Shown: positions 53,209 to 63,481 of the stretch, piece after piece
How the letters are laid out: each line of letters begins with the position of its first letter
Position numbering within the stretch: the stretch's first letter is position 1
Assembly (NCBI GenBank): GCA_012517325.1
Contig: JAAYVF010000041.1
Coordinates: forward strand, 1-64,000
Reading direction: 5' to 3'
Source of the DNA: Myxococcales bacterium
GTDB taxonomy: Bacteria > Lernaellota > Lernaellaia > Lernaellales > Lernaellaceae
DNA length: 64,000 nucleotides
The notes under the pieces: model-generated
Told to the model about the DNA's origin: nothing
The model's database searches: none
Seen by the model: the letters and a program-made list of their open reading frames with translations, nothing else
Translations under genes and position numbers: made by a program

Positions 53209-54315
53209 ATGGGTGTAGCAGTGCTCGGTATCGGCATGTGCGGCTTCACGCCCACCTCGACGGGACTATCGTACCGCGAGTTGATCGCCAAAGCCGCGAA
53301 AATGGCCTACACCGACGCCGGCGTTACCATCGACCAGATCGATGGCGCGGTCTCGGTGGAGGAGGATTTCAATTCCGGCTATTCCATTTGCGATGAGTAC
53401 GTACCGGATCAGCTTGGCATGGTCCGCAAGCCGGTTTACTCGATCCCGGGCGACTTCCTGCACGGCATCGGGTCGGCCGTCATGCAGATCAAGACGGGCC
53501 GGTACGGCATTCTCGTGGTGGAATCCTACAGCAAGGCCTCCAACATCCTGACCAAGGACGAGTTGCTGCGCTTTGCCTTCGATCCGATCTTCAACCGGTT
53601 CGGCGTCTCGCCCCATTACCTGGCGGGCATCGAGATGCGGTCCTTCCTCAACGAATCGGACTACCGGATGGAGGACGTGGCCGAGGTCGTGGTGAAGAAC
53701 CGCGCCAACGCCCTGTTCAACAGCAACGCGCCCTACGGCGGCCGCTACACCGTCGGCGACGTGCTGGAAGCGCGGCCGGTCGCCGCGCCGATCACCGAAC
53801 TGATGTTCCCGCGCCATGCCGACGGCGCCGTCGTCGTCGTGCTGGGCACCGACGAACTGGCCCGCGAATACGCCCGCAAGCCGGTCTTCATCGCGGGCAC
53901 CGGCTGGGGCTCGGGCACCTCGATCCTCGAACGGCGCGACCACGCCTATTCCGTGGGTACCGAAATCGCCGGCACCCTCGCCTACCAGGAAGCCGGCATC
54001 GAGAATCCGGCCGAGGAAATCGACGCCTTCTTCGTTTCCGACCTGTACGCGCACCGCGAATTGATGCACCTGGAAGCGCTGCAGATCGGCGGCTGCGACG
54101 CCGCGATCGTCAACCCGAACGGCGGTTCGCTGGGCAACGGCGACCTGCTCGAGCTCAACGGCGGCGCGCGCTTCTACGAAGCGGTCGCGCAACTGCGCGG
54201 CGAAGCGGCGGCCTGCCAGGTCGAGGCCGAGCGCGTGCTGGTGCACGGCTGGCGCGGCCTGCCCACCGACTCCTGCGCGGTGGCCATTTTGGAAACGGAA
54301 AGGAGGGCGTCATGA
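53209..54315 (+). CDS. Thiolase-fold protein lacking canonical catalytic residues
   Basis: 368 residues, thiolase/SCP-x fold (GVAVLGIGMCGFTPTSTGLSYRELI; NRANALFN; RHADGAVVVVLGTDE). Two features differ from true thiolases: no Cys is found in the segment SIPGDFLHGIGSA where the nucleophile belongs, and the GHP His block is GGSLGNGDLLELNGG, with Asp at the His position. Similar proteins in steroid and other pathways (Ltp2-type) act as retro-aldolases or non-condensing partners with DUF35 proteins. The downstream gene overlaps by four bases (ATGA) and supplies a second thiolase fold with DUF35 modules, so the two likely form one complex. Confidence 0.7.
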   Translation: MGVAVLGIGMCGFTPTSTGLSYRELIAKAAKMAYTDAGVTIDQIDGAVSVEEDFNSGYSICDEYVPDQLGMVRKPVYSIPGDFLHGIGSAVMQIKTGRYGILVVESYSKASNILTKDELLRFAFDPIFNRFGVSPHYLAGIEMRSFLNESDYRMEDVAEVVVKNRANALFNSNAPYGGRYTVGDVLEARPVAAPITELMFPRHADGAVVVVLGTDELAREYARKPVFIAGTGWGSGTSILERRDHAYSVGTEIAGTLAYQEAGIENPAEEIDAFFVSDLYAHRELMHLEALQIGGCDAAIVNPNGGSLGNGDLLELNGGARFYEAVAQLRGEAAACQVEAERVLVHGWRGLPTDSCAVAILETERRAS

Positions 54316-56513
54316 GCCAGAGAGTAGCCGTCGTCGGCGTCGGCATGACGAAATTCATGCGCCGGGCCAAGGAATCCCCCGGCGAGTTGGCGGCCAGCGC
54401 GGTCCGCATGGCCCTGGACGATGCCGGAATGGAAATCGACGAGATCGACGCCGTGTGCCTCGGTACGGCCCCGGATGCCTTCGACGGCATTCACATGAAG
54501 GGCGAACACCTGATCGCGGGCGCCGGCGCCTCCAACAAGCCGTACCTGCGGCATTACGTGGGCGGCGCGACAGGCGTGATGAGCCCGATCCACGGGTGGA
54601 TGCACGTCGCTTCCGGCAAATTCAACTCGTGTCTGGTGATCTGCGAAGAAAAGATGTCGCCGTGCAGCCCGCACCCCGCCGGCGCCTTCCTCACCATCTT
54701 CGACCGCGTGACCGAGCAGCCGCTGCAACTCACGCTGATCCACATCTTCGCGCTCGAGATGGCGCGCTTCATGCACGCCTACGGGTACACCGAGGAAGAC
54801 ATCGCGCGGGTGTCGGTGAACAACAAGCGCAACGCGCTGGATCACCCGGCCGCGCAGATCGCCGAGAACCTGACCGTGGCCGACGTTATGAATTCGACGC
54901 TGCTGTCCTGGCCGGTGAAACGCCTCGACATCAGCCCGACTTCCGATGCGGCGGTGGCGATCATCCTCACCAACGAACGCGTGGCGCGGGCCAAGAAGCC
55001 GGCGCCGGTGTTCATCGACGGCGTCGGCTTCCGGCTCGACACCGCCTATTGGTGCACGCGCGACCTGGCCTATCCGAATTACGTCGCCATGGCCGCGCAG
55101 GACGCCTACAAAATGGCCGGCGTCGTCAACCCCGTGAAGGACATCGACATCTTCGAGCCGTACGATCCGTTCGATTACAAGGCGCTGCATCACATGAACG
55201 GCCTGCTGCTCGACAAGACCGGCAAGACCGTCAAGGACCTGCTGTTCTCCGGCGCCTTCGACCGCGCCAGCGGCACGCATCCGCTATGCCCGTCGGGCGG
55301 CGCGCTCGGCGTCGGCAACCCGATCGCCGCGACCGGCCTGATGAAAATCGCCGAGTTGTACTTCCAACTTAGCGGGCAGGCCGGCAAACGGCAGATTCAA
55401 CGGCCCATCCGGCGCGGCGTCGCGCAAGCTTGGGGCGATCTGATGCAGGTCGGCACCGTCGTGGTGATGAGTTCCGAAGGCGCGCCGCCGCACGCCGTCG
55501 GCCACTGGAACAAAATGGAAAAAGCGGACCTGCCGGGCACGCCGCTGAAGAAGATCACCGACGTGCCGTACATCGCCGAGACGCCCGACCTGCGTTACGC
55601 GTGGGACAACGGCTTCGCCATGACGACCTACCTGGACGGTCTGAAGCAGGGCAAGATTCGCGGCAGCTACTGCCGGGGCACCGACCGGATGATGATTCCG
55701 CCGCGGGCCTTCAGCGAAATCGACAACCTCAACCCGGTGTTCGACTACTTCAACCTGCCCGACACCGGCACCGTGCAGACCTATACGATCAGCCACGTCA
55801 ATTGGGATTCCTCGCCGTTGCCCGACGGCCAGGTCAACATCTTCGCCGTGATCGCCATCGACAACGCCGGCGAGCACATGGGCCTGGTGCACCTGCTGCG
55901 CGACGTCGATCCCAAGGACGTGCACATCGGCATGAAGGTCAAGGCGGTCTGGAAGAAAGCCGAGGAACGCGTCGGCTCGATCATGGACATCCTGTATTTC
56001 ACGCCGCTGGGCAAACGCGCCAAGATCGACGGATCGATCGAAGCGATCAAACCGGTCGAACTCGACGCCACGACCGCCGGCTATTGGCCCGGTAAGATCC
56101 CGCTCAATTACTTGTACACCGCCGGTCTGGCCGGGGTGAAGTTCTACAAGGATCTGGCCGCCGGCAAAATCACCGGCACCTGGAACGAGGAACTGGAAGC
56201 GACGGTGATTCCGCCCATGGCGTTCGACGAGAATTCGATGGACCTGCTCAATCCCGAGAGCGAGGCGCGGGCCGTCGATCCGGCTTCGGGCTACATCGAA
56301 TCGTTCAGCATCGTGTACGAGGACCGCAAGGGACACCTGCTCGCGGAACCGGTGGTGATCGTGCAAGTGGCCTTCGCCGACGTCGTCGGTTCGATCTTCG
56401 GCCGCCTGGACGTGAAGGAAGGCGACGAGTTCGGCATCGGCGATCCGGTCGTGTTGGTCAAGAGCAAGAAGATTAACGGTCCGGACGACGTGAAGTTCCG
56501 CCTGCGGAAATAA
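54312..56513 (+). CDS. Thiolase-fold / tandem DUF35 fusion protein
   Basis: 733 residues. Residues 1 to about 400 are a thiolase fold (RVAVVGVGMTKFMRR, EEDIARVSVNNKRNALDHP) in which the nucleophile Cys position is Gly (YVGGATG) and the His block is GGALGVGNP with Asn336 in place of His. Residues about 425-575 form a DUF35 module: a rubredoxin-like ribbon with only one Cys left (Cys454, KIRGSYCRGTDRMMIPPRAF) and an OB fold (about 480-560). Residues about 600-725 are a second DUF35-like module with no ribbon Cys (IPPMAFDENSMD). In known systems DUF35 proteins carry or channel acyl-CoA for thiolases and aldolases. The fusion with two modules is unusual. Confidence 0.72.
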   Translation: MSQRVAVVGVGMTKFMRRAKESPGELAASAVRMALDDAGMEIDEIDAVCLGTAPDAFDGIHMKGEHLIAGAGASNKPYLRHYVGGATGVMSPIHGWMHVASGKFNSCLVICEEKMSPCSPHPAGAFLTIFDRVTEQPLQLTLIHIFALEMARFMHAYGYTEEDIARVSVNNKRNALDHPAAQIAENLTVADVMNSTLLSWPVKRLDISPTSDAAVAIILTNERVARAKKPAPVFIDGVGFRLDTAYWCTRDLAYPNYVAMAAQDAYKMAGVVNPVKDIDIFEPYDPFDYKALHHMNGLLLDKTGKTVKDLLFSGAFDRASGTHPLCPSGGALGVGNPIAATGLMKIAELYFQLSGQAGKRQIQRPIRRGVAQAWGDLMQVGTVVVMSSEGAPPHAVGHWNKMEKADLPGTPLKKITDVPYIAETPDLRYAWDNGFAMTTYLDGLKQGKIRGSYCRGTDRMMIPPRAFSEIDNLNPVFDYFNLPDTGTVQTYTISHVNWDSSPLPDGQVNIFAVIAIDNAGEHMGLVHLLRDVDPKDVHIGMKVKAVWKKAEERVGSIMDILYFTPLGKRAKIDGSIEAIKPVELDATTAGYWPGKIPLNYLYTAGLAGVKFYKDLAAGKITGTWNEELEATVIPPMAFDENSMDLLNPESEARAVDPASGYIESFSIVYEDRKGHLLAEPVVIVQVAFADVVGSIFGRLDVKEGDEFGIGDPVVLVKSKKINGPDDVKFRLRK

Positions 56514-56573: not shown

Positions 56574-56981
56574 TTACTCGACCTGCCGTGGCTCGACGAC
56601 CGTCTTGACGAAATCGACGATCTCCTGGATCGGGGTGCCGGGGGTAAACAACGCGGCCACACCCTTCTCTTTCAGCCCCGCGATGTCGACCTCGGGAATG
56701 ATCCCGCCGCCGAACACGATGATGTCGCCGGCCCCTTTTTCTTGCAGCAGGCGGATCACCTCGGGAAACAGATAATTGTGGGCGCCGGAAAGAATGGAAA
56801 GCCCGACGGCGTCGACGTCTTCCTGGATGGCGGTATTGACGATCATTTCCGGCGTCTGATGCAGGCCGGTATAAATGACTTCGTAGCCGGCATCGCGCAA
56901 AGCGCGCGCGACGATCTTGGCGCCGCGGTCGTGTCCGTCCAGGCCCGGCTTGCCGATTAATATGCGGATTTTGCGATTCAT
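56574..56981 (-). CDS. Cobalamin-binding small subunit of acyl-CoA mutase
   Basis: 135 residues, a stand-alone B12-binding Rossmann domain. [18 protein letters not shown] holds the DxHxxG signature whose His ligates cobalt, with GLSILSGAH and VFGGGIIP forming the nucleotide-tail groove. The length equals that of IcmB and HcmB. GGGGAGGG precedes the ATG, 85 bases after the large-subunit stop. With the large subunit it should make a two-chain mutase of the isobutyryl-CoA mutase type. Confidence 0.93.
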
Positions 56982-57066: not shown

Positions 57067-58701
57067 CTAGAGATAGGCCGGATCGGAATATTCGCCGAAA
57101 ACTTCGCGCAGCCGGTTGATGATTTCGCCCAGGCTGGCGTAACTCCGGACGCAATCCAGAATCGCCGGCATCAGGTTGCCGCCGTTGACGGCGGTTTCTT
57201 TCAAGGCGCGCAGGTTTTTCGCCACGGCCTCGTTGTCGCGGTTTTCCCGGACGCGCTGCAGATTCTCCACCTGGCGTTTTTCGATCGCTTCGTCGATGTA
57301 AAGCGTGTCGATGTTGATCGCTTCCTCGGTGGCGAATTTATTGACCGCGACGATGGTCTTTTCGTTCTTGTCGACCTGCTGCTGATAGTGATAGGCGGCG
57401 TTGCTGATTTCCCGTTGCGGGTAACCGCGCTCGATGGCGCGGATCATGCCGCCCATTTCGTCGATCTTGCGGATGTACTCCAGGGCGTCGGCTTCCAGGC
57501 GATTGGTCAGCGACTCGACGAAGTACGAGCCGCCGAGCGGGTCGATCACGTTCGCCACGCCGCTTTCCTCCGCCAGGATTTGCTGGGTGCGCAGCGCGAC
57601 GGTCACCGCCTGTTCGGTCGGCAGCGCCAGGGTTTCGTCCAGGCTGTTGGTGTGCAGGCTTTGGGTGCCGCCGATGACCGCGGCCAGCGCCTGGATCGTG
57701 GTGCGGACGATGTTGATGAGCGGTTGTTGCGCGGTCAGGCTGCAACCGGCGGTCTGTGTGTGAAAACGCAGCAGCCACGAACGGGGATTCTTGGCGCCGA
57801 TTTCTTCTTTCATGAAGCGCGACCAGATGCGCCGCGCCGCCCGGTACTTGGCGATTTCCTCGAAGAAGTCGCTGTGGGCGTTGAAGAAGAACGACAGCCG
57901 GGGCGCGAAAACGTCGGGGTCCATGCCGGCGGCGATCGCGGCCTTGACGTAGGTCATGCCGTCGCACAGCGTAAACGCCAGCTCCTGCACGGCGGTGCTG
58001 CCCGCCTCGCGGATGTGGTAGCCGCTGATGCTGATCGTGTTCCAGTTGGGAACTTTCTCGGCCGTGAATTTCATCACGTCGACGATGATCTTCAGGCTCG
58101 GTTCCGGCGGATAGATCCAGGTTTTCTGCGCGATGTATTCCTTGAGCATGTCGTTCTGGATTGTGCCGCCGACCTTGTCCCAGCTCACGCCCTGTTTTTC
58201 GGCGACGGCCAGGTACATCGCCAATAAAATCGGCGCCGGCGGATTGATCGTCATGCTCGTGGTGATCTGATCGAGCGGAATGCCGCTGAAGAGCTGTTCC
58301 ATGTCGGCGAGCGTATCGATGGCCACGCCGCACTTGCCGACTTCGCCGCGGCTGCGCGGATCGTCGGAGTCGCGGCCGTACAGCGTCGGAAAATCGAAAG
58401 CCACCGACAGGCCGGTCGTGCCGTTGGCCAGCAGGTACTTGTAACGCTCGTTGGTTTCCTTGGCGGTGCCGAAGCCGGAAAACTGCCGCATGGTCCAGGT
58501 GCGGCCGCGATACATGGTGTTGTGAATGCCCCGCGTGTAGGGGTAATCGCCGGGTTGTCCCAAATCACGGTGATAATCGAAGTCGGGCAAATCCTCCGGA
58601 GTGTAAAGCGGGTCGACCGGCAGATCCGACAAGGTCGTGAAGCTGCGCTCGAGCTTCGGGCTGGCCGCGAATTTTTCCAGCCATTCCTTCTTGCTTACCA
58701 T
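57067..58701 (-). CDS. Acyl-CoA mutase large subunit, isobutyryl-CoA-mutase-like
   Basis: 544 residues, the TIM-barrel substrate domain of B12 mutases without its own cobalamin domain. [19 protein letters not shown] and [21 protein letters not shown] are the two substrate-binding blocks. In methylmalonyl-CoA mutase the first block has Tyr (RQY) and the second has Arg (VRN/AR); here they are Phe and Gln, exactly the pair that defines isobutyryl-CoA mutase. The start of the substrate loop reads IHNTMY, so the usual Tyr of YPTMY is His. The His of [12 protein letters not shown] is kept. It overlaps the FadL-like gene by seven bases. Confidence 0.85.
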
Positions 58702-60011
58702 GGCCTCTTTCCGTTGTAGGCTTGATACATCCGTTCGAAGTTGAACGTGACCGCGCCGACGAACATGTCGTAGCTCGTTTTATAACGTCCGCGGCCGTCG
58801 TCGAGGCCGCTTTCGAAACTGCCGTCCGGCGGCGGAGTTTGAATGTCGTACTGATAGATGTGCGCGTAGCCCATGTCGATGTCCATGCCGAAATAGCGCA
58901 TCGTCAGGCCGGTGCCGAAAAAGTGCCGATCGGTTTCCGTGCCGCTGATTTTCGGCGGGTTCGCGGAATCCTCGTATTGGTAACCGCCGTGGAACCACCA
59001 GTGATCGTTCAGCCGGTAGGTGCCGCCGAGCCGGTAATTCCAGGTGTCCTGCCATTGCAGCGGGTATTTGAAGTCGGCCAGGATTTCCTCGCCTTCCAGA
59101 TCGACGTCGTAGTACGGCAGCATGGTCCAGGGAATGAAGCTGACATCGAATTCGACGTCGAATTTTTCGGGATACATGAACCGCACGCCGCCGCGGTAGA
59201 TCGGCGGATAGTTGAGCGGCAGGCGGATTTTGTCGGTGAAGGTCTTCATGCCCAGAATCGTCGCGTACAGATCGGGCATCTCCGCCTTGACCCGGCCGAC
59301 GATCGTCACGTCGAACGACGGCAGGTAGGAAAAGCCGACTTCGAACCAGTTGGGAATCGGCGCGAAAACGACGCCCGCGCCCCAACTGGGAACGTATTCC
59401 GTCCAGGCGGAAAACTCGCCGGTGACGTCAAAGGACGGATTGCGGTCTTTCAACACCGAGAAGCCGTAGTAGTTGATCAACTTGAAGTTGACCACGCTGG
59501 CTTTGGCGCCGACGCGCACCCAATCGGTCGGGTTCCAGGCCACGGCCAGCGATTGATAGACCTGGATCGCGTTGCTCTCGATGATGTTGTAGCGCTGCGG
59601 GCCGCGTTCCGGCCAGCGGTTGGTGGTGCCGTAGGGACCGTAGGCGCCGTAGGCGAACGTCCAATGCTTCAAGCCGAAATCGCTGGAAATCGCCGCGGTC
59701 TGGATCGGATCGAACGGGTTGAGATTGCGCACGGCGGATTGATACGGTTCGCGCCGGTAATAGGTGTGCTGAATATCATAATTGACGCAGAAATAGACGT
59801 TGGTGCCGTCGACATTGGCGATATTGGCCATGTTGACGTAGAGCGCCGACAAATCGTTGCCGCCCAGCACGTTGGCGCCGCCGCGCATCAACGAACGGGC
59901 GCCCAGTTCCGGATGGAAAAATCCGCTGGCGAAAACGAGTTGAGGAACGAAAAGAAAAACGGCGAGCAACAAGTAGATCCTGAAGCGAGTGGCAAGAGCA
60001 AGTGTGATCAT
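58695..60011 (-). CDS. FadL/TodX-family outer-membrane hydrophobic-compound channel
   Basis: 438 residues. A signal peptide ([17 protein letters not shown]) is followed by the N-terminal [24 protein letters not shown] plug segment typical of OMPP1/FadL/TodX, then an amphipathic beta-barrel ending in an aromatic ([16 protein letters not shown]). FadL-type barrels take up long-chain fatty acids or hydrocarbons by lateral diffusion. It is first in the operon and overlaps the mutase large subunit, which links uptake of a hydrophobic substrate to acyl-CoA rearrangement. Confidence 0.82.
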
Positions 60012-62701: not shown

Positions 62702-63481
62702 ATGCACCAACGCACATCGCTGTTCCTCCTGTTTACCTTGCTTTTATCGGCGACCTTCGGCATGGCCGCGCTTTGTTCGTCCGATGACGATGATGATAAC
62801 GATGACAGTGGCGACGACGACACTGCGGATGACGACCTCGTCGACGACGACAACGGCGACGACGACACTGCGGATGACGATGCGGCTGATGATGACGCGG
62901 CGGATGACGACGCCGCCGACGATGATGCAGCTGACGACGATGCCGCCGACGACGACAGCGGCGATGATGACGATGACGACGACGACAACGATGATGATAA
63001 CGACGATAACGACACCACGCCCCAGATGGGCTACGACGTCGGCGATAAAATGCCGGATTTTACACTGCTCGATCAGAAGGGCGACGAAGTTTCGCTGTAC
63101 GATTACGCCGGCAAGGTCATTCTTCTGGATACCTCGGCCATGTGGTGCGGCCCCTGTCAGCAGGACACTCCCAAGCTGGAAACCGATTACTACCAGGTCT
63201 ACAAGGATCAGGGTGACGGTTTCATGGTGCTGCAATTGATTCTGGCCAATTACAACGACAATCCGCCGACCCAGGCCGAATTGCTTGCCTGGGCGACCCT
63301 GTACGGCCTGACTTTCCCGGTGCTGGATGACAGCAGTTGGGACGTGACCTACCCATTGCACGGCGGATCGATTTCGATTCCGGCTTATGCCCTGCTCGAT
63401 CAGGAGGGCGTCATTCGGAAAAAGGAGGGATATCTGGTCTCCTATGACTCATTGATCGAAAGTTTGCTCGGTATCGACTGA
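62702..63481 (+). CDS. Secreted thioredoxin-fold protein with long Asp-rich linker
   Basis: 259 residues. A hydrophobic signal ends GMAALC, which only loosely fits a lipobox, so lipidation is uncertain. Residues about 28-103 are nearly all Asp with a DDDAA repeat. The C-terminal domain (about 110-259) is TlpA/AhpC-type thioredoxin: MPDFTLLDQKGDEVSLYDYAGKVILL, active-site WCGPC, and the cis-Pro region ISIPAYALLDQEG. It is likely a surface or periplasmic disulfide oxidoreductase on an acidic stalk. AGAGGGAG precedes the ATG. Confidence 0.8.
   Translation: MHQRTSLFLLFTLLLSATFGMAALCSSDDDDDNDDSGDDDTADDDLVDDDNGDDDTADDDAADDDAADDDAADDDAADDDAADDDSGDDDDDDDDNDDDNDDNDTTPQMGYDVGDKMPDFTLLDQKGDEVSLYDYAGKVILLDTSAMWCGPCQQDTPKLETDYYQVYKDQGDGFMVLQLILANYNDNPPTQAELLAWATLYGLTFPVLDDSSWDVTYPLHGGSISIPAYALLDQEGVIRKKEGYLVSYDSLIESLLGID
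62783..63013 (+). repeat. GAY-rich coding tract encoding Asp-rich linker
   Basis: About 230 bases of Asp codons with a 15-base unit (GAY GAY GAY GCN GCN) repeated in tandem in the middle. The third codon positions differ between units, so the pattern is kept at protein level and is not a fresh slippage product. Confidence 0.7.

Follow-up and report, generated by a model that had tools for sequence, protein, structure and literature searches.

Two adjacent genes near the end of a 64,000-nucleotide stretch of DNA (contig JAAYVF010000041.1, here called the window) encode proteins with the thiolase fold, and both are labeled thiolases by automatic annotation. The upstream gene (A) is short, and the downstream gene (B) continues beyond its thiolase region into two DUF35/OB domains. 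Both reading frames were confirmed, and they overlap by the four nucleotides ATGA. The frame of A is open as far as 52990; the start in relatives is the homolog of 53209. The pair and its parts are as follows.

53209–54315, + strand: subunit A, thiolase fold without Cys/His catalytic residues (Pro80, Ser277, Asp312), 368 amino acids (aa)
53446–53448, + strand: codon of Pro80 of A, nucleophile site (by alignment; variable in A homologs)
54142–54144, + strand: codon of Asp312 of A, GHP His site (by alignment; variable in A homologs)
54312–56513, + strand: subunit B, thiolase fold (aa 1–390) fused to two DUF35/OB domains, 733 aa
54564–54566, + strand: codon of Gly85 of B, in place of the nucleophilic Cys of thiolases (by alignment; Gly in 81/81)
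55161–55169, + strand: Tyr284-Asp285-Pro286 of B (YDPF), in place of HD(C/A)F of thiolases (by alignment; 81/81)
55317–55319, + strand: codon of Asn336 of B, in place of the GHP His (by alignment; Asn in 81/81)
55599–56009, + strand: first fused DUF35 domain of B, C (Pfam; 1/4 zinc-ribbon Cys kept)
56079–56501, + strand: second fused DUF35 domain of B, D (match to 3irb; 0/4 zinc-ribbon Cys kept)

Pfam recognizes Thiolase_C_1 in A, and Thiolase_N, Thiolase_C_1 and two copies of OB_ChsH2_C (the DUF35 OB domain) in B. The best NCBIfam family for A is PRK06066, matched at 333 bits and thus under its cut-off of 516, as is the A protein of Syntrophaceae (472 bits). B is matched by PRK06065 at 552 bits, over the cut-off of 455. 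Both families are named merely "thiolase domain-containing protein", with no function assigned.

Residues at the catalytic columns of A and B

The catalytic columns were placed by alignment with the solved thiolases 6hsj, 7pxp, 7yvy and 6esq. All three of them (the Cys, the His/Asn of HDxF/NEAF and the His of GHP) are altered in both A and B. In B, the nucleophile column holds Gly85 (YVGGATG, against xxACASG) and the GHP His column Asn336 (GVGNP). The corresponding residues of A are Pro80, which follows a three-residue deletion, and Asp312 (GNGD). These assignments bear out the initial annotation of the sequence, which had described Asp for His and no Cys in A, and Gly for the nucleophile and Asn336 for His in B. 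A third change had escaped it: the HDxF His column is occupied by Tyr284 in B (EPYDPF) and by Ser277 in A (VSDLY). With all three columns changed in both subunits, its claim that the pair is not a thiolase is strengthened.

Conservation was assessed in 81 B homologs taken from genome contigs of Deltaproteobacteria, Planctomycetota, Chloroflexota, Spirochaetota, WOR-3, Bathyarchaeota, Lokiarchaeota and Hermodarchaeota. Gly84, Gly85, Tyr284, Asp285, Pro286, Tyr289, Lys290, His293, Asn336, Asp376 and Gln379 are fixed in every one. Even in a wider set of 44 proteins that includes distant paralogs (28%–43% identity), Gly85, Tyr284, Pro286 and Asn336 are invariant. Conservation at these four positions is far above chance, and their identity in 81/81 homologs from Bacteria and Archaea indicates that B is not a decayed thiolase. 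Judged from the aligned residues, the thiolase active site has undergone a coherent, conserved replacement, which is more than mere loss. A conserved cysteine in the pocket was also looked for: the only near-conserved ones in B are Cys107 (76/81) and Cys326 (69/81). Neither belongs to the catalytic columns, and in the wider clade Cys326 gives way to Asn or other residues. Subunit A behaves differently. Among 73 homologs, its nucleophile site is Pro, Ser, Cys, Thr or Gly, its HDxF His site Asp, Ser, Asn or Cys, and its GHP His site Asp, His, Asn or Tyr; the invariant residues, Glu52, Asp53, Asp67, Lys109 and Trp348, lie elsewhere.

To place these changes among thiolases, 93 thiolase-fold proteins from the own genome, related and unrelated genomes, solved thiolases and plasmid-borne relatives were compared. 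Outside the A group (67 proteins), the three columns read Cys/His/His in 29 and Gly/Tyr/Asn in 26. The remaining combinations are Gly/His/His (4), Pro/His/His (2), Ser/His/His (2), Gly/Tyr/His (2), Ala/Tyr/Tyr (1) and Cys/Asn/His (1). Cys and Tyr never occur together, and Tyr is found in 29 of the 37 proteins that lack the Cys (Fisher p = 5e-12, with phylogeny not corrected for). A-type and B-type proteins form one clade apart from the thiolases with a support of 100, or 99 after removal of the active-site columns. Loss of the nucleophile thus probably preceded the divergence of A and B. Pure A and B subclades have supports of 97 and 82 in the full alignment and are not clear once the active-site columns are removed; monophyly of B alone is therefore not firm, and only the joint clade is claimed.

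Another group of thiolase-fold proteins without the Cys (L123, L125, L127 and L144) has Gly at the nucleophile and keeps HDAF and GHA/GHP (Gly/His/His). This group looks like a sister-like intermediate. L096, considered as a homolog of Ltp2, was rejected, being an SCP2 thiolase with its Cys.

A and B are nearly always neighbors and are accompanied by two DUF35 domains; wherever the flanks are visible, a B-type gene adjoins an A-type gene. The distances between loci computed for A and for B are correlated (r = 0.90 over 72 loci), to which shared species history contributes. Structures predicted with AlphaFold, each subunit being folded singly from alignments of 40 rows, were compared with Foldseek. 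Both models adopt the thiolase fold, with a predicted local distance difference test (pLDDT) score of 88 for A and 83 for B. Their best matches are archaeal thiolases, 6et9 for A (template modeling [TM] score of 0.90) and 7yvy for B (0.90), and Sal (9myr, 0.81 to B) and Ltp2 (6ok1, 0.79 to B) are among the top matches.

Gene neighborhood and the linked B12 mutase

Downstream of the pair, on the opposite strand, lie three genes that accompany it in relatives.

56574–56981, − strand: B12-binding small subunit of the linked acyl-coenzyme A (CoA) mutase (Pfam, synteny)
57067–58701, − strand: large subunit of the acyl-CoA mutase, with Phe74 and Gln192 (Pfam, residue alignment)
58695–60011, − strand: FadL/TodX outer-membrane transporter, overlapping the mutase gene; operon partner in relatives (Pfam, synteny)

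In most relatives the genes are unfused and follow the order A-B-C-D, where C and D are single DUF35 proteins whose CxxC...CxxC zinc ribbons are intact. The window and its nearest relatives instead carry the two DUF35 domains as fusions to B, with loss of the zinc ligands in both domains. Three relatives from the same class have fadL-mutase-B12 subunit-A-B as a single co-directional operon; in the family of the window, A-B has the opposite orientation to the adjoining fadL-mutase-B12 subunit. Of 80 loci, 30 have acyl-CoA dehydrogenase genes within ∼10 kb and 16 have a B12 acyl-CoA mutase. The full operons of Syntrophaceae add an electron transfer flavoprotein (ETF), FeS-flavoprotein oxidoreductases, a carboxyltransferase, methylmalonyl-CoA mutase (MCM) and epimerase, together with a cobalamin adenosyltransferase and MeaB, both assigned by sequence recognition. 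A chemically complete example (L028) reads hydratase-dehydrogenase-mutase-B12 subunit-A-B-C-D.

The position of MCM Tyr89 was located in the mutases with the Y89F mutant structure 5req. Wherever they could be read, the mutases directly beside the cassette all carry Phe where MCM has Tyr89 and Gln where it has Arg207, and such mutases stand next to the pair also in Syntrophaceae and Bathyarchaeota. Phe and Gln at these positions mark isobutyryl-type mutases. By its residues the window mutase would have isobutyryl-type specificity, where annotation would call it a methylmalonyl-CoA mutase. It is also the sole acyl-CoA mutase in a genome that is 97% complete, and a housekeeping methylmalonyl-CoA mutase was rejected on both grounds. 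In the Syntrophaceae-type operons, the second mutases, located farther on and close to the epimerase, have Tyr and Arg. Taken together, the linked genes suggest the breakdown of branched acyl-CoAs as the predicted substrate class.

Other settings of the cassette were also seen. In three Dehalococcoidia (L054, L057 and L069), genes for an acetoacetate-CoA ligase and an acyl-CoA dehydrogenase come after A-B-C-D. A role of the pair as a stand-in for 3-hydroxy-3-methylglutaryl-CoA (HMG-CoA) lyase was considered, given that the ligase adjoins it in these three and that no HMG-CoA lyase over the cut-off was found in the window's genome, and was judged too thin to prefer. In a Lokiarchaeote (L063, 12357–17343), two aldehyde:ferredoxin oxidoreductase-like genes come after the cassette, with a CoA ligase between them (by eye and similarity), an arrangement that would fit an aldehyde product; aldehyde oxidoreductase neighbors were seen in two Lokiarchaeota loci only. 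The window's own genome holds a second, divergent A/B/DUF35/DUF35 set (L099, G000:C48, 1675–10140). It is accompanied by two acyl-CoA dehydrogenases, a FadD11-like CoA ligase and a cholesterol-oxidase-like GMC enzyme (589 bits, under the cut-off of 850), and is possibly a steroid-type side-chain module. Elsewhere in the window, 62702–63481 encodes a protein with a long acidic DDDxAADDDAADDD repeat followed by an apparent thioredoxin/TlpA-like domain.

A predicted aldolase and its alternatives

The reading that we favor, with a probability of about 0.6, is that A, B and the two DUF35 domains form a heteromeric thiolase-fold aldolase (a C–C lyase) acting on β-hydroxyacyl-CoA, with B as the catalytic subunit and A as its structural partner. 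The initial annotation had left a retro-aldolase and a non-catalytic acyl carrier side by side, and had pointed to a conserved Tyr or Asp as a residue to look for. Tyr284, present in 81/81 B homologs, is such a residue. A retro-aldolase of the Ltp2 type is favored for B because this invariant Tyr sits where Ltp2 and Sal have their catalytic bases, Tyr294 and Tyr302. A non-catalytic or helper role appears to suit A best. Both Ltp2 and Sal are proven retro-aldolases that bind DUF35 domains, as described in a 2025 JBC study of Sal (PMC12329534). According to the same study, Ltp2 has a YDHF motif, and its base and acid are Tyr294 and Tyr344, respectively; in Sal the motif is YDCY, Tyr302 and Cys304 are essential, and Gly stands at the old nucleophile (PMC12329534).

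In the proposed reaction, Tyr284 would act as the base that deprotonates the β-hydroxyl. Gly85 would leave space at the former Cys, and its backbone may bind the β-hydroxyl. The C–C bond would then break while Asn336 and backbone amides hold the thioester enolate; candidate proton donors are water and invariant polar residues of either subunit. The expected products are a ketone or aldehyde and a shorter acyl-CoA. Subunit A, its own site lost, may be an obligate dimer partner that probably shapes the pocket of B. In the window lineage the enzyme would work with the FadL importer and the isobutyryl-type B12 mutase, probably in the breakdown of branched acyl-CoAs whose β-carbon cannot become a ketone. 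A tertiary β-alcohol is not oxidizable to a 3-keto acid; a lyase would therefore replace 3-hydroxyacyl-CoA dehydrogenase and thiolase, and Ltp2 is a known case of such a replacement.

Several points weigh against this proposal. The retro-aldolase activity of the subfamily is a prediction from sequence and context, and the sequence of B is nearer to the archaeal thiolase 7yvy (141 bits) than to Sal (68) or Ltp2 (62). The residues of Ltp2 and Sal were compared through published positions and spacing, and Ltp3 and Ltp4 through gene order and sizes. The acids Ltp2 Tyr344 and Sal Cys304 are not shared by B, which has Asn336 and Pro286 there. Only 6 of 80 loci have a gene nearby for enoyl-CoA hydratase, the enzyme required to form the substrate. 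Phe/Gln mutases are found without the pair as well, for example in G003 (same class), G026 and G027, so the mutase–pair link is strong but not obligate.

The same fold and pocket could also run in the opposite direction, as a biosynthetic aldol reaction in which the enolate of an acyl-CoA adds to a ketone or aldehyde. Aldol reactions are reversible, the Dehalococcoidia cassette adjoins an acetoacetate-CoA ligase and a dehydrogenase, and the related DUF35 complex PhlABC serves biosynthesis (PMC2954200). The neighbors of the pair are nevertheless mostly catabolic (acyl-CoA dehydrogenases, ETF, FadL, mutase, carboxyltransferase with methylmalonyl-CoA mutase), which makes this direction unlikely. 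The acyl-CoA carrier or scaffold offered by the initial annotation is more improbable still. It would account for the loss of all thiolase catalytic residues in both halves and for the variable pocket residues of A, and DUF35 was once proposed to bind acyl-CoA (PMC2954200), but a carrier would not require Tyr, Pro and Asn to be fixed at the catalytic columns, where B holds an invariant alternative set throughout two domains of life. A similarly small chance is given to another reaction of a Cys-less pocket, either a retro-Claisen reaction that hydrolyzes a 3-ketoacyl-CoA or a decarboxylation. Asn336 could stabilize an enolate in any of these, and TbSLP, with a YDCF motif, decarboxylates malonyl-CoA slowly; CtSal, with similar residues, shows no malonyl-CoA decarboxylation (PMC12329534), and genetically studied relatives within the clade are described as aldol-lyases (PMC6593523, PMC4761994). 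Finally, a residual or unusual thiolase that borrows a Cys from the DUF35 ribbon or from Cys326, which does lie beside the GG loop in 69/81 B homologs, is highly improbable, given that Cys326 is Ser or Asn in the others and that the DUF35 Cys is lost in the window lineage itself.

If the pair is a retro-aldolase as favored above, it may belong to a pathway for branched acyl-CoAs that would be widespread but undescribed, occurring in Syntrophales, Bathyarchaeia, the FEN-1099 group (Ca. Lernaellota) and others, although the three steps taken jointly are a tentative and rather doubtful proposal. An isobutyryl/pivalyl-type B12 mutase would first move the thioester to give a β-branched chain, and a dehydrogenase and a hydratase would convert this to a tertiary β-hydroxyacyl-CoA. 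The A/B/DUF35 complex would then release a ketone and acetyl- or propionyl-CoA by a retro-aldol reaction, replacing the dehydrogenase-plus-thiolase end of β-oxidation.

Members of the family in Bacteria and Archaea (Asgard, Bathyarchaeia, Syntrophales, Chloroflexota, Planctomycetota) are annotated as thiolase or acetyl-CoA acetyltransferase and are therefore counted as the last step of β-oxidation in genome reconstructions, a role that their residues contradict. The fixed Gly/Tyr/Pro/Asn signature provides a simple sequence test that separates the family from thiolases, and a testable active site for Ltp3/Ltp4-like pairs as well. The finding also points to a pathway linked with the isobutyryl-type B12 mutase.

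Comparison with known thiolase-fold and DUF35 systems

Literature searches for the exact system found no description of it, and by its residues and domains the pair appears to be a variant of the known DUF35-aldolase kind. The steroid side-chain aldolases Sal (CtSal with the DUF35 protein Shy, PDB 9MYR) and Ltp2-ChsH2 (PDB 6OK1) likewise combine a thiolase fold with a DUF35 partner. As in B, the His of HDxF is replaced by Tyr and the GHP His is also replaced; Gly at the nucleophile has been shown for Sal. The distance from the motif Tyr to Ltp2 Tyr344 or Sal Gln352 is 50 residues, equal to that between HDCF and GHP in 6hsj, from which we infer that Tyr344 and Gln352 fall in the GHP column, where B has Asn336. 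The third motif position, however, is Pro286 in B (81/81) and not the His (Ltp2) or Cys (Sal) that serves as acid/oxyanion residue. In addition, the core of Sal and of Ltp2 is a thiolase-fold homodimer accompanied by two DUF35 proteins, whereas the window pair consists of two different chains.

Closer in architecture are the actinobacterial pairs of PRK07937 and PRK08313 accompanied by a double DUF35 (L105 and L106), which show the same residue pattern and fall inside the A+B clade. The Tsukamurella plasmid L105 carries three such genes in succession: the first encodes a 309-aa protein with two DUF35 domains, the second the A-type protein (593 bits to PRK07937) and the third the B-type protein (734 bits to PRK08313). 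In this B-type protein the columns read AG / YVPF / SNP, the Gly/Tyr/Pro/Asn pattern of B. The gene order matches Rv3521-Rv3522 (ltp4)-Rv3523 (ltp3), and the gene sizes presumably match as well. From order and sizes we infer that these actinobacterial pairs are Ltp3/Ltp4-like, the names ltp4 for Rv3522 and ltp3 for Rv3523 being those of Mycobacterium tuberculosis (PMC6429209). In two reports citing Wilbrink 2012, Ltp3 and Ltp4 are described as aldol-lyases, an assignment made genetically, that are required for C24-branched sterol side chains (PMC6593523, PMC4761994). Like the window pair, the Ltp3/Ltp4 type has two different, adjacent thiolase-fold genes and two DUF35 domains within the same clade. 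The window proteins nevertheless score far under these families (B, 216 against a cut-off of 514 for PRK08313; A, 81 against 419 for PRK07937), and in contrast to the sterol side-chain context of Ltp3/Ltp4, they are found with FadL, the B12 mutase and acyl-CoA dehydrogenase, with the DUF35 domains fused to B.

Two other complexes share the architecture but differ at the active site. BbsAB, the benzoylsuccinyl-CoA thiolase (PDB 7PXP), also pairs a thiolase fold with a DUF35 partner; unlike A and B, BbsB retains Cys, HDAF and GHP and is a real thiolase. The Friedel-Crafts acylase PhlABC joins two thiolase-fold chains (PhlC and PhlA) and a DUF35 protein (PhlB) in one complex, as would the window pair. 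PhlC is a catalytically active member of the thiolase superfamily, and the structure of a related ATase is available for its C88S mutant, whereas A and B lack the Cys. The direct family of the window pair is PRK06065/PRK06066, within which the B-DUF35-DUF35 fusion and the loss of the zinc ribbons are special to the window lineage.

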